A model generated the notes under the pieces. That model was not told where the DNA came from and made no database searches. It saw nothing but the letters and a program-made list of their open reading frames with translations. The position numbers were made by a program, and so were the translations under genes. DNA of 64,000 nt. Source: Kribbella sp. VKM Ac-2569. GTDB lineage: Bacteria > Actinomycetota > Actinomycetes > Propionibacteriales > Kribbellaceae. Below, in pieces: positions 40,289 through 44,607 of the stretch. The DNA is taken from contig NZ_SGXJ01000002.1 of NCBI RefSeq assembly GCF_004216905.1, positions 248,001-312,000 on the forward strand, written 5' to 3'. How positions within the stretch are numbered: position 1 is the stretch's first letter; each line of letters opens with the position of its first letter.

Positions 40289-40356
40289 CCTGACACTCCA
40301 TGACTGTCTAATTGGCTATGATCGGTCACGCAGCCCTGAGCCTACGGAGGTATCGC

Positions 40357-40938
40357 GTGACTGGTCAAGTGTCTTTTGATAGTCATGCCCGCAATGTGCT
40401 GGCCGCGTCGGTCGAGTACGTGAACCGGCTGACCCCTGGGTACGCCGGTGGCGTCGAGCACACCGCGCCGTCCGACGAACCCGAGGCTGTCGCGGAGGCG
40501 CTGACCGCGATCGGCCATCCGCCGAAGTCGGTCCCGCTGGACGATGCCCGGCGACTCGTACGCCTGGCGGGGCGGATGCGGATCGTGTTCGAGGCTGCGA
40601 ACACCGGCGACCTCGACACCGCCGCAGCAGAGATCAACGCGTTGCTGGTCGATACCAACGCGCGTCCACAGCTCGACCGCGGCAAGGATCGCCCGTGGAG
40701 CCTGCACTTCCACGGCCCCGACGAGCAGCTCGCGAACGGCTGGGCCGCCGGATGCGCCGCCGGCCTGGCACTCGCCGTCGGCAGCGACCTGGCCGGCCGG
40801 CTAGGCGTCTGCGCAGCGCCGCAGTGCGACCGGGTCTTCGTCGACGTGTCGAAGAACGGTCAACGCCGCTTCTGCTCCCCCCAATGCCAAAGCCGCGTCA
40901 AGGCCGCGGCGCATCGAGCGCGCCAAGCTGCCACCTGA
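40357..40938 (+). CDS. CGNR zinc-finger protein (ABATE-type putative regulator)
   Basis: 193 aa. An N-terminal ABATE-like ligand domain (YVNRLTPGYAGGVEH, then LDDARRLVRLAGRMRIVFEA) is followed by the C-terminal zinc finger with CAAPQCDRVFVDVSKNGQRR and FCSPQCQSRVKAAAHR. Here the CGNR box reads CAAPQC. GTG 40357 has GGAGG 6 nt upstream. It is divergent from the MFS gene and probably regulates it (inference). Confidence 0.85.
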   Translation: MTGQVSFDSHARNVLAASVEYVNRLTPGYAGGVEHTAPSDEPEAVAEALTAIGHPPKSVPLDDARRLVRLAGRMRIVFEAANTGDLDTAAAEINALLVDTNARPQLDRGKDRPWSLHFHGPDEQLANGWAAGCAAGLALAVGSDLAGRLGVCAAPQCDRVFVDVSKNGQRRFCSPQCQSRVKAAAHRARQAAT

Positions 40939-41834: not shown

Positions 41835-43352
41835 ATGCACAGATGTTCTTCTTGTGGTGCCGGAAATCTGACCGGCGCCACGTACTGCGGCACGTGCGGA
41901 CAGCAACTGCCGCCGATCGAAGCAGATACCGAACCGTCCGGGGACGCACCGCCGTCGGATGCCACTCGTTATCTGTGCGCGGCCGTTCAGTTGAACAGCC
42001 GGCTCGCCGACGAGGTCGTTCGCGACATTCTGGACGAAGAATTCAAGGCACCGCCGGCGTCTCCGGACGTCGATCTGGTCCCGGTGATCCTGCACGCGAT
42101 CGCGGCCAGGAAACGACATCTCGTCCGCGATGTCCTGCTGACGTTCCTGCTCATCAGCGCATTCTGGGGTGCCTACAGCGCACGGTACGTCGTCGTGCTG
42201 CTGGCGCTCGCACTGTGCTGGGTGGTGGTCGTCGGCGAGACCTTGGTGGCGACGTACGGCGTCGTGGCCCACGACCTGCGCCCGGAACGGTTCAAGCCGG
42301 ACGCCTTGTCATCGGACGATCCCGCAATCAGGGATCGGCTCAGGCAAGTCGCCACAGCCGCTCGGGGCAATGTCAGCGTCTACAGCGGCTACCGGCCGTT
42401 CGTCGGATGCGGAGTGCCCTTCGACGCCTGGTCCTTCGCGCTCGACATCGACCGGGCGGCGGAGGGGAAGGTGGCCGAGTCCTTCACCGCGCTGTCGATC
42501 CACGACTTCGTGAAACAGCGCTTGGGTGACCTGCGGACCGGCGAGGTGGCGCTGGCCGACCGCGTCTTCGTCGACGGTCGCGACATCCGCGAGGACCGCC
42601 GGTTCCTTCCGGATCGGTTCGCGGTGCCGAGGCCGAAGGTGGATCGCTCGATGGTGCGGAGCCTGACGGTCGAGCCCGAAGACCGGGCACGCCCGTACCT
42701 GACCGTCCAGATCAGTGGCTGGCGCGGGCAGTTGGTCGTCTCGACCTTCCTGCGGTTCGTCGTCACGCCGCACGAACTGGTCGTCGAGGTCACGCACTGC
42801 CTGCTCGGGCCGGTGCGGGACGAGTTCCAGGAGGTGGACAGCCTGTTGCCGGAGCCGACCGCGCGCCAGGCGATCCGGATCGGCGGGCGAGCTCTGCGGA
42901 GGACGCCGGGGCATCTGCTCCGGGCCCCGATCGCGATCGCGAAGCACCTTCTCGGACCGGTGACGACGGCCCATCACCGGGCCAGGCAACGGCGGGAGAT
43001 CGTCCGCTCGCTCCGGTTCGACTACGGCGCCGCCAGAAGCCCGCGCGAGACGGTCAGCGACGACCGGTACCAACGGTACTTCCAGAAGCTCGACAGCGCC
43101 TTGTACACCAAGGTGATCGAGAAGCGGATGCTCCAAGCGGTGGAGCAGTTCCTCGAATCCAAGGGGATCGACACCCTCGAGCTGACGCAACGACAGGCAA
43201 TGATGCAGAACAACGGCGTGTACGTCGCCCCGGGTGCGACCGTCACCGCCGGCAGCATCGCTGCCGGGACCGGAGCCCGCGCGAGGTCCGTGATTCGGAG
43301 GGCCGCCAACGTGGCCAGGCAAAGCGTCACCGATGCAGCCGGAAGGAACTGA
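41835..43352 (+). CDS. Zinc-ribbon membrane protein of unknown function (cassette protein A)
   Basis: 505 aa. A zinc ribbon (Cys4, 7, 18, 21; CxxC-x10-CxxC) is followed by a linker, a basic helix and two membrane segments at ~98-115 and 117-142. A ~300-residue cytosolic-looking domain of no recognised family follows. Residues 459-484 carry a Gly/Ala-rich motif (GVYVAPGATVTAGSIAAGTG) that is also at the N-terminus of the next protein. RBS is GGGGGG before ATG 41835. Gap to protein B is 5 nt. No function is assigned. Confidence 0.8.
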   Translation: MHRCSSCGAGNLTGATYCGTCGQQLPPIEADTEPSGDAPPSDATRYLCAAVQLNSRLADEVVRDILDEEFKAPPASPDVDLVPVILHAIAARKRHLVRDVLLTFLLISAFWGAYSARYVVVLLALALCWVVVVGETLVATYGVVAHDLRPERFKPDALSSDDPAIRDRLRQVATAARGNVSVYSGYRPFVGCGVPFDAWSFALDIDRAAEGKVAESFTALSIHDFVKQRLGDLRTGEVALADRVFVDGRDIREDRRFLPDRFAVPRPKVDRSMVRSLTVEPEDRARPYLTVQISGWRGQLVVSTFLRFVVTPHELVVEVTHCLLGPVRDEFQEVDSLLPEPTARQAIRIGGRALRRTPGHLLRAPIAIAKHLLGPVTTAHHRARQRREIVRSLRFDYGAARSPRETVSDDRYQRYFQKLDSALYTKVIEKRMLQAVEQFLESKGIDTLELTQRQAMMQNNGVYVAPGATVTAGSIAAGTGARARSVIRRAANVARQSVTDAAGRN

Positions 43353-43357
43353 CACCC

Positions 43358-43720
43358 ATGGAGAAGAACGACGGAATCCGGATCTCGGGCGGACACGTCT
43401 CGGTCGGCGCGATGGCAGCCGGCCAAGGCGCCACGGCCACGAACACGAACATCTCGGCAGTTTCGGCAGGTTCGCTCGCCGACGCGCGAGCCGGGATGGC
43501 GCAGCTCCTCGAACTGCTGCACACGCACTCGGAGCGGTTGGAGCGGCCGGACGAAGCCATCGCGGTGGCCGAGCTGGCCGATCGCGAACTGTCCAAGGAG
43601 GAACCCGACAAAACGTCGGTACTGCGGCTGCTGGAGCTGGTCGCATCCGGAGCCAAGTCGATCGCCTCGATCGGCGGCGCGGTGACGGCTGTCCAGCAGG
43701 CGGTCTCTGCGATCTTCTGA
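43358..43720 (+). CDS. Small Gly/Ala-motif protein with helical C-terminus (cassette protein B)
   Basis: 120 aa, no signal peptide. Residues 5-28 (GIRISGGHVSVGAMAAGQGA) match the C-terminal motif of protein A. The rest is helical: LADARAGMAQLLELLHTHSE, then EEPDKTSVLRLLELVASGAK and a hydrophobic tail that could be a membrane helix. Small actinobacterial proteins of this layout (DUF5955-like, as I recall) occur near conflict and signalling modules. It lies 5 nt after A and 21 nt before C. Confidence 0.7.
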   Translation: MEKNDGIRISGGHVSVGAMAAGQGATATNTNISAVSAGSLADARAGMAQLLELLHTHSERLERPDEAIAVAELADRELSKEEPDKTSVLRLLELVASGAKSIASIGGAVTAVQQAVSAIF

Positions 43721-43741
43721 GCGTCTGGGGGGACGAACTCG

Positions 43742-44551
43742 ATGTCTGTCTATTGCACGATCTGTGGCACTCGCCGGCCGGAGGGGGCCAAGTACTGCTC
43801 GCATTGCGAGGCCGCGTTCAAGGACGAGGCTGCCGACTCGCGGACCACTCAAGGCCCGCCCGGATACGGAACGGGCTGGTTCGTCGGAGCCACCGTGGTT
43901 CTCGCCGCGATCGTCACCGGCGTGATCCTCGGCGGCGACGCGCTGATCGCGCGCTCCGTGGCTGCCCCTGACCTGACCGCTTACAACCAGCGCATCACGC
44001 CTGACGGCAGGATCACGTACGGCCCGGTCGAGCCAGTGGAGACACCCGCTGAAGAATGGACACCGTCGCCGACGGAGGACGAGACCAGCGACATCCCGCC
44101 GGTGTCGACCGAGCCGGCTGAGTCGGTCGCGCCGTCGGTGCCCGCAGTGGGCAACGAACTGATCACCGTTACCCCGGAGGCGGCGCAAGACCCTGCCGCG
44201 GCCGACGTCGTACAGCTGCTGACCGCTTACTTCACAGCCATCAACAACCACGACTACGACGCCCATCAAGCACAGCTGACCCGCGCGGCGCGGGCAGCCA
44301 TGACCCGCAAGGAGTTCACATCCGGCTTTCGCTCCACCGTGGACTCCGAGATCACGCTGGCCGGGCTCAGCATTGCGCGCGACGGGCGGATGGTGGCTGA
44401 AGTGTCTTTCGTCAGCCGGCAGAACGCGGAGGACGGACCCGAACGCCAGACCTGCACCCGCTGGACCGTCGGCAAGTTCTTCGAGGGCCAGGGCACGAGC
44501 CTTCGGATCGGCAAGGCGCTTTCGGGCAGCGCCAGATACGAAGCCTGCTGA
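43742..44551 (+). CDS. Zinc-ribbon, single-pass membrane protein with NTF2-like ectodomain (cassette protein C)
   Basis: 269 aa. The zinc ribbon has Cys5, 8, 19, 22 with the same CxxC-x10-CxxC spacing as protein A. A membrane helix (~46-68, FVGATVVLAAIVTGVILGG) and a Pro/Thr/Glu-rich linker follow. The C-terminal domain (VVQLLTAYFTAINNHDYDA to the end) looks like an NTF2/SnoaL-like cone outside the membrane. A perfect terminator follows at 44559. It is probably co-transcribed with A and B. Confidence 0.75.
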   Translation: MSVYCTICGTRRPEGAKYCSHCEAAFKDEAADSRTTQGPPGYGTGWFVGATVVLAAIVTGVILGGDALIARSVAAPDLTAYNQRITPDGRITYGPVEPVETPAEEWTPSPTEDETSDIPPVSTEPAESVAPSVPAVGNELITVTPEAAQDPAAADVVQLLTAYFTAINNHDYDAHQAQLTRAARAAMTRKEFTSGFRSTVDSEITLAGLSIARDGRMVAEVSFVSRQNAEDGPERQTCTRWTVGKFFEGQGTSLRIGKALSGSARYEAC

Positions 44552-44558
44552 TTCCAGT

Positions 44559-44595
44559 ACGACGCCCCACCCGGACAGGCCGGGTGGGGCGTCGT
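44559..44595. terminator. 16-bp perfect hairpin terminator, bidirectional
   Basis: ACGACGCCCCACCCGG and its exact complement surround loop ACAGG, between the cassette and the convergent MmpL gene. Confidence 0.85.
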
Positions 44596-44607
44596 GCCAG
44601 CCAACTG

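Follow-up and report, generated by a model that had tools for sequence, protein, structure and literature searches.

In filamentous actinobacteria, bacterial amyloid signalling sequences (BASS) of Bell/NLR (NOD-like receptor) gene pairs are described as short motifs of many sequence types on the adjacent termini of the products of neighbouring genes, with TIR and CHAT domains being the less frequent partners (PMC7889193, PMC8086366). The fungal HET-S/NWD2, HELLP/PNT1 and PUASM systems likewise consist of adjacent receptor and effector genes whose products carry a matching amyloid motif, and fungal PNP_UDP effectors carry the PUASM motif (PMC9815663, PMC7885112). Effector-associated domains (EADs) are found with one copy on a core component and the cognate copy on an effector, often the product of the neighbour gene, neighbouring copies being the most alike, and EACC1 is a two-gene module, prevalent in actinobacteria, of a membrane component and a variable partner (PMC7159879). 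Here we analyse a cassette of three genes, A, B and C, in a 64,000-nucleotide (nt) window – the whole stretch of DNA that was analysed – on contig 2 of the 8.4-Mb genome of Kribbella sp. VKM Ac-2569. As in BASS, matching short motifs lie on the neighbouring termini of the products of adjacent genes, A and B, and we consider it likely that a private homotypic motif wires the two together as receptor and effector. From sequence we read the matching motifs, the way in which they co-vary, the fact that the searched genomes contain no third strong copy, the swapping of output domains and the predicted membrane helices of A.

Gene A (41835..43352; this and all the other features are on the + strand) encodes a 505-amino-acid (aa) membrane protein, the presumed receptor or scaffold, and gene B (43358..43720) encodes a 120-aa protein, the presumed effector or adaptor, in which the motif precedes a four-helix, DUF5955-like part. 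The common motif comprises ~25 residues of Gly/Ala/Asn character: tail/head alignments place it at residues 459–483 of A (43209..43283), a presumed effector-recruiting tail, and at residues 4–27 of B (43367..43438). The Smith-Waterman score of the A tail against the B head is 57, as compared to 29.4 ± 5.5 for shuffled heads, with 4 of 5000 shuffles reaching 57. The original prediction, made from the letters of this DNA, had noted the likeness between the two termini and taken it as a sign of A-B contact. The motif is indeed there, modest in the window and far beyond chance across relatives: its likeness, the loss of which in homologue alignments had been set beforehand as the refuting test, holds across 42 clusters. 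Contact via the shared motif appears to be the best reading of the co-variation that we describe below.

The motif varies widely from locus to locus, tail and head changing in step, and a fixed pattern therefore missed every gene listed for 16 loci; we compared tails and heads by alignment instead. From the stronger-scoring matches of searches of the class and of genus g23 (which we take to be Streptomyces-like), leaving out A frames that run off the contig or whose match ends before residue 380, we obtained 183 A frames intact at the end (counting duplicates). A downstream gene accompanied 166 of these, which gave 157 unique A-B pairs and 42 clusters at an A-core identity below 50%. B was picked by coding score and position (start at –60 to +160 nt, 80–420 aa), not by the motif. 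Across the 42 clusters the mean tail-versus-head score is 76.4 for cognate and 30.8 for non-cognate combinations, a difference reached in none of 10,000 permutations, and the cognate head is the best of the 42 for 34 tails (with one tie, L217). When near-identical relatives are kept, the two averages become 72.6 and 32.2 (156 pairs, one without a full core having been left out). In the controls this difference is absent or almost absent: B heads paired with A residues –150 to –75 average 23.2 for both cognate and non-cognate combinations, A cores paired with B ends 24.5 (non-cognate 24.3), shuffled heads 25.7 (non-cognate 25.5), and A tails paired with B ends 25.0 (non-cognate 23.3; 99 of 10,000 permutations). 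Where A cores are similar and the tails have diverged, the own head outscores that of the relative in 718 of 758 ordered comparisons. A partial Mantel test of tail-head correlation given core and body distances yields r 0.157 (none of 2000 permutations; n=121 non-redundant small-B pairs), and with 24 clusters r is 0.20 (17 of 2000 permutations). A profile built from Kribbella B proteins alone matched the A tail in genome G007 (E 0.007).

Examples of tail/head pairs are NVQNQPGALGSQQS / NVQNQPGAFNSSQT (L074), NNFGGNQSVGNTNTTQTFG / NNFGGNQSTGNTDTTQTFG (L222) and NSGIVNMGGTNDFTNTAVGDQA / NSGIVNMGGTNSFTNTAVGDQA (L168). Composition was computed for 40 pairs, the low-scoring L206 and L152 having been left out: Asn is enriched ~7.5-fold (0.099 versus 0.013) and Gly 2.4-fold (0.190 versus 0.078), with Leu, Trp, Cys, Glu and Arg depleted. 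In the same 40 pairs the motif starts a median of 7.5 residues into B. The A-B gap is ≤0 in 94 and ≤30 nt in 135 of the 157 pairs, and the two motif-coding stretches lie a median of 53 nt apart (range –1 to 170; 40 pairs), so that one recombination could replace both at once.

The motif is private to the pair in the genomes that we searched in six frames with profiles of three motif types (E≤0.1; 22 motif-bearing genomes). The type STFAIG occurs at exactly two places per genome, the A tail and the B head, in 9 of 9 genomes, and so does the PNP type in 5 of 5, all candidates having been scored for both. The Kribbella type has two strong places in all 8 A-bearing genomes, with a third match in G002 at E 0.09; here 150 of the 166–215 first-look candidates per genome were scored, and weak extra copies could be missed. 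Eight of 8 Kribbella genomes without A contain no motif match better than E 0.06. Two matches per genome are expected, these sequences or relatives of them having gone into the profiles; the result is that the three profiles revealed no third strong copy in any of the 22 motif-bearing genomes. A single tail, that of L222, used as the query retrieved in its own genome itself and its own B head (E 1.4e-6), and in three other searched genomes A tails.

The part of B that follows the motif is exchanged between loci. Among 43 B representatives, Pfam (E≤0.01) assigns DUF5955 to 11 (best E 2.9e-11), PNP_UDP_1 to 6, CAP12-PCTIR_TIR to 3 and EAD1 to 3. Above-cut-off scores were obtained for TIR (93.1 and 90.4 bits), PNP (63.7 and 84.6 bits) and EAD1 (55.4 bits in L104 and 46.7 bits in L160); in the B proteins of L104 and L160 EAD1 lies after the motif, and the third EAD1 match, L210, is below the cut-off. 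PADLOC finds PN-superfamily effectors in six representatives and a TIR effector in one, plus several candidate-defence families. When all 157 B proteins are grouped by similarity to the representatives (E≤1e-3), 108 are helical, nine PNP, seven TIR and five EAD1 (from four loci). The B protein of the window falls in the helical group: it scores 16.5 bits against DUF5955 (PF19380; gathering cut-off 27.1) and has no EAD match in Pfam at E≤1. The links to DUF5955 and to EADs that had been proposed for this cassette are thus borne out in the family, the former by the 11 representatives in spite of the sub-cut-off score of the window's own B, and the latter by the fusions of EAD1 to the motif. In the monomer model of B the helix block, residues 41–120, is predicted at a pLDDT (predicted local distance difference test) of 82–94 and residues 11–31 of the motif region at <50; model and hydropathy together suggest four helices at residues 40–119 (43475..43714), the last mildly hydrophobic, with one weak hydropathy peak at residue 102 (1.46). 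A fold search with the model gave nothing below E 1.7, a PDB profile search returned mostly coiled coils and designed helical proteins (best E 0.0043), and we found no DUF5955 paper in the open-licence PMC literature. As judged by eye, the longer B proteins of L147, L144, L190 and L109 have a second motif-like stretch after the first, which recalls the repeated motifs of HET-s. At L206:3245-4306 the gene that comes after a motif-bearing A encodes a 354-aa membrane protein lacking the motif.

A matched pair that changes in step while its output domain is exchanged is what is expected of a receptor-effector system with a homotypic recruiting motif. Here A would reside in the membrane with its C-terminal Gly/Asn-rich motif of ~25–35 residues as the output. 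A may detect the trigger directly, or C, the accessory membrane protein of Kribbella and the Streptomyces-like loci, may do so in its place. Upon triggering, A would cluster, its tails taking on a β-rich, probably cross-β fold that recruits and templates the motif of B, thus gathering the B output domains at the membrane. In the window this output would be the DUF5955-like four-helix part with its mildly hydrophobic last helix, which may have the membrane as its target or bring in another partner. Given the TIR, PNP_UDP nucleosidase and EAD1 outputs of the sister systems, the likely outcome is depletion of nucleotides or NAD, with cell death or dormancy in defence. Physical contact, the amyloid-like fold, the trigger, the direction of signalling and the cell-death outcome are what we infer from the sequence features.

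The pair resembles BASS and HET-S/NWD2 pairs in how it works and is not a member of either group. On the receptor side stands a membrane protein in which no NLR domain was detected, whereas BASS receptors are NLRs: neither NACHT nor NB-ARC is matched in Pfam by 13 A (E≤0.1) or 43 B proteins (E≤0.01). The polarity is reversed, with the motif at the C-terminus of the receptor and the N-terminus of the effector rather than at the effector C-terminus and the NLR N-terminus; no strong third motif copy is present in the searched A-B genomes; and the effectors are DUF5955-like, TIR, PNP_UDP and EAD1 proteins. The fungal systems differ in that their receptors are NLRs and their effector motif is C-terminal. 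While EADs are small, mostly helical domains, the A-B pair has a Gly/Asn-rich motif and, as its core, an unnamed membrane family; in our analysis the pair nevertheless obeys the EAD principle (PMC7159879), with a motif in place of the domain, and some B proteins carry EAD1 itself. The EACC1 module, in contrast, pairs a single-helix component with a caspase or cyclase protein, and the available part of its description mentions no terminal motif (PMC7159879). A search of titles and abstract openings in the open-licence PMC literature found no non-NLR membrane protein with such a motif pair, which does not by itself show absence from print.

Several observations weigh against the receptor-effector reading. 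BLASTP gave no alignment between the A tail and the B head of the window, and a search of the own genome with B residues 1–40 did not recover the A tail at E≤10, returning B itself and one chance-level match (E 0.8); from this one sequence, the observation is true but only moderately significant. The window's A tail scores higher with 2 of 41 foreign heads (L064 and L106) than with its own, in 8 of the 42 rows the cognate head is surpassed by another (L018, the Kribbella representative, L108, L109, L141, L152, L156, L161 and L206), and across all 156 pairs the cognate head is the best for only 60. The non-best rows and the foreign heads that outscore the window's own suggest specificity by motif type at best. 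Seventeen of the 183 A frames (duplicates included) have no B by the pair criteria, the A neighbour of L206 lacks the motif, 28 of the 157 B proteins fall in no class, and the B protein of the window reaches no family cut-off, its model being without a match in the fold search. The structure of A predicted from two sequences has a pLDDT of 32.1, leaving the receptor role presumed, and none of the window's neighbour genes examined (partly by eye, with no neighbourhood survey) is a known defence gene. The amyloid fold, which we consider probable, is read from the composition of the motif. Lastly, the codons at residues shared by tail and head are identical more often than expected (396 of 649, 0.61 versus 0.50), and part of the within-locus likeness may thus come from DNA copying between the neighbouring stretches.

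The codon figure, along with the closeness of the two motif-coding stretches, also speaks for regarding the likeness as a functionless by-product of short duplications or gene conversion, a reading that we find barely credible: mean protein identity between tail and head is only 52%, different codons are used at 39% of the shared residues, the position at the A end and B start is kept together with the pairing in most of the 42 clusters and with different B domains, and no other strong copy was seen in the 22 motif-bearing genomes. The codon figures suggest that most of the pairs are not recent duplicates. Nor do we give much weight to B being a negative regulator whose motif caps the A tail and silences A, the latter acting as the active membrane component, for instance a pore. 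The larger conserved protein is the membrane protein A, and the window's B has no recognisable enzymatic domain, as such a regulator would have it, yet elsewhere B carries TIR, PNP_UDP or EAD1, known output or effector-recruiting domains, and is therefore better read as the output side.

The main competitor of amyloid-like templating in our analysis is static tethering, in which the motifs form a constitutive mixed β-solenoid or small β bundle that merely holds B at the membrane protein, with no prion-like templating or switch. Any homotypic contact would explain the co-variation equally well, and the Kribbella motif type is a Gly-rich alternating pattern with A-x-G-x-x-A-x-A turns, which fits such a structure. 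We nevertheless regard a static assembly as unlikely, as permanently assembled TIR and PNP_UDP outputs would presumably be harmful and an Asn/Gly-rich, charge-poor composition is that of amyloid signalling motifs. Amyloid-like templating is probably the best account because the motif resembles in this respect the peptides of PMC8086366 and because fungal PNP_UDP/PUASM effectors are known (PMC9815663). More tentatively still, and with our confidence falling short of an even balance, we propose a large, so far unreported class of amyloid-type signalling in Actinobacteria, with a membrane protein in place of an NLR as the receptor, the C-terminal tail of which templates the N-terminus of a private effector encoded next to it. 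Matched pairs of motifs would have arisen anew on many occasions, and effector domains (TIR, nucleosidase, EAD1, helical) would have been exchanged.

Protein A combines a zinc-ribbon-like CxxC-x10-CxxC, seen in the sequence at residues 4–21 (41844..41897; C4-x2-C7-x10-C18-x2-C21) and conserved in Kribbella, with two predicted membrane helices (42120..42245; hydropathy peaks, defined as a 19-residue mean >1.4, at residues 96 (1.53) and 119 (2.58)). At least one such peak is present in A of all 42 representatives (stop-to-stop frames). The ribbon scores 20.5 bits against Zn_Ribbon_1 (PF13240; cut-off 25), and just 3 of 13 diverse A proteins match this family at E≤0.1 in Pfam. The conserved stretch from the membrane helices to the tail marks out a family that has no name in Pfam: besides the ribbon, Pfam offered no convincing family for the 13 A proteins, and neither NCBIfam nor PADLOC named 43 C-terminal parts each (E≤0.01). 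There is no convincing sequence relative in the PDB (best E 0.22), and TRADD-N and its associated membrane domain, for which the Pfam models used as the reference were those we presume to be the relevant ones, do not appear in the lists of Pfam families of the A proteins (13, E≤0.1) or of the B proteins (43, E≤0.01). Two A-core homologues, L073:5118-6791 and L079:6134-7795, lack both the tail motif and B and stand beside a gene that is presumably HIT-like; among the matches listed for g23, many genomes have ones that resemble these two in low score and similar extent.

Gene C (43742..44551) encodes a 269-aa protein with a zinc-ribbon-like CxxC-x10-CxxC seen in the sequence at residues 5–22 (43754..43807; C5-x2-C8-x10-C19-x2-C22; Zn_Ribbon_1 19.1 bits, cut-off 25), a membrane helix predicted from hydropathy (43895..43951; peak at residue 52, 2.29) and a presumed extracytoplasmic domain. 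For the latter an NTF2-like fold had been suggested, which found no tool support: the NTF2-like family search gave only DUF4829 at E 0.18, and the PDB profile search gave no convincing relative (best E 0.58). A next gene with a membrane helix ≤150 nt after B accompanies 67 of the 108 helical-B, 2 of the 9 PNP and 4 of the 28 unassigned pairs, and none of the 7 TIR or 5 EAD1 pairs. The outer part of C differs in sequence between Streptomyces-like and Kribbella loci: among 96 next genes, Kribbella C matches only the seven Kribbella loci, while the outer parts from L084 and L068 match 57 and 50, respectively. C is an accessory, the core being the two genes A and B. Three PNP-type loci (L168, L170 and L174) have a similar third gene downstream of B (229 aa in L168, 184 aa in L174).

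The layout of three genes separated by 5 (A-B) and 21 nt (B-C) is as first described, and the order A-B-C is kept in all eight A-bearing Kribbella genomes, though a frameshift interrupts A in G002 and B in G010; the rarity of co-occurrence that would have refuted the original prediction was not seen. The gene unit that the original prediction drew holds in this order, with its core reduced from three genes to two. The links of A and B and the membrane anchoring of A and C, as predicted from hydropathy, held up as well; of the shared ribbons the spacing is present in both A and C, at sub-cut-off Pfam scores, and it is not general in the A family. A shared terminator had also been proposed: 3′ of C there is a perfect 18-bp hairpin with a 5-nt loop (44557..44597; fold z –6.94), lying between C and a convergent gene that we take to be MMPL-like, which may be a T-less terminator; it has no T run and does not appear in the terminator scan output. 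Upstream of the cassette lies a gene for a CGNR zinc-finger regulator (zf-CGNR plus ABATE in Pfam; window 40312-40938), which is also near the cassette in four other Kribbella loci (L014, L016, L017 and L019).

Eight of the 38 Kribbella genomes contain A, and a ninth a remnant of the tail. This remnant, L021:9775-9961 in G036, is all that is seen of A there; with the frameshifts in G002 and G010, it suggests that the cassette decays in places. The window's neighbour genes are at least partly near the cassette in 5 of 7 relatives, with no flank match in G007 and G006. At E≤0.001 the Kribbella A profile matches 48 of the 396 genomes searched in the phylum, in many cases over the ribbon end only. 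A broader profile, A4 (E≤1e-6), has matches in 68 of 394 genomes at the class level and in all 121 of g23; these counts include motif-less A-core homologues such as L073 and L079. A Sphingomonas match (L003) was dropped for covering 69 residues only, as were four weak extra B matches (L058–L061), the frames of which, as judged by eye, do not read as B relatives.

Motif searches have so far been biased to the NLR/executor layout, and wider ones would be welcome (PMC7889193). The A-B pairs point to an unreported kind of receptor-to-effector wiring, with suspected cell-death enzymes on the matching copy at other loci. They offer a hypothesis for the function of an unnamed membrane family, the core of which is matched in every g23 genome, motif-less paralogues included, and the 42 clusters, with their matched motif pairs, provide a natural lock-and-key library with which to study how homotypic assembly gains its specificity. 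If the reading is true, amyloid-like wiring of receptors to effectors would not be bound to NLRs and would also link bacterial membrane proteins to death enzymes.

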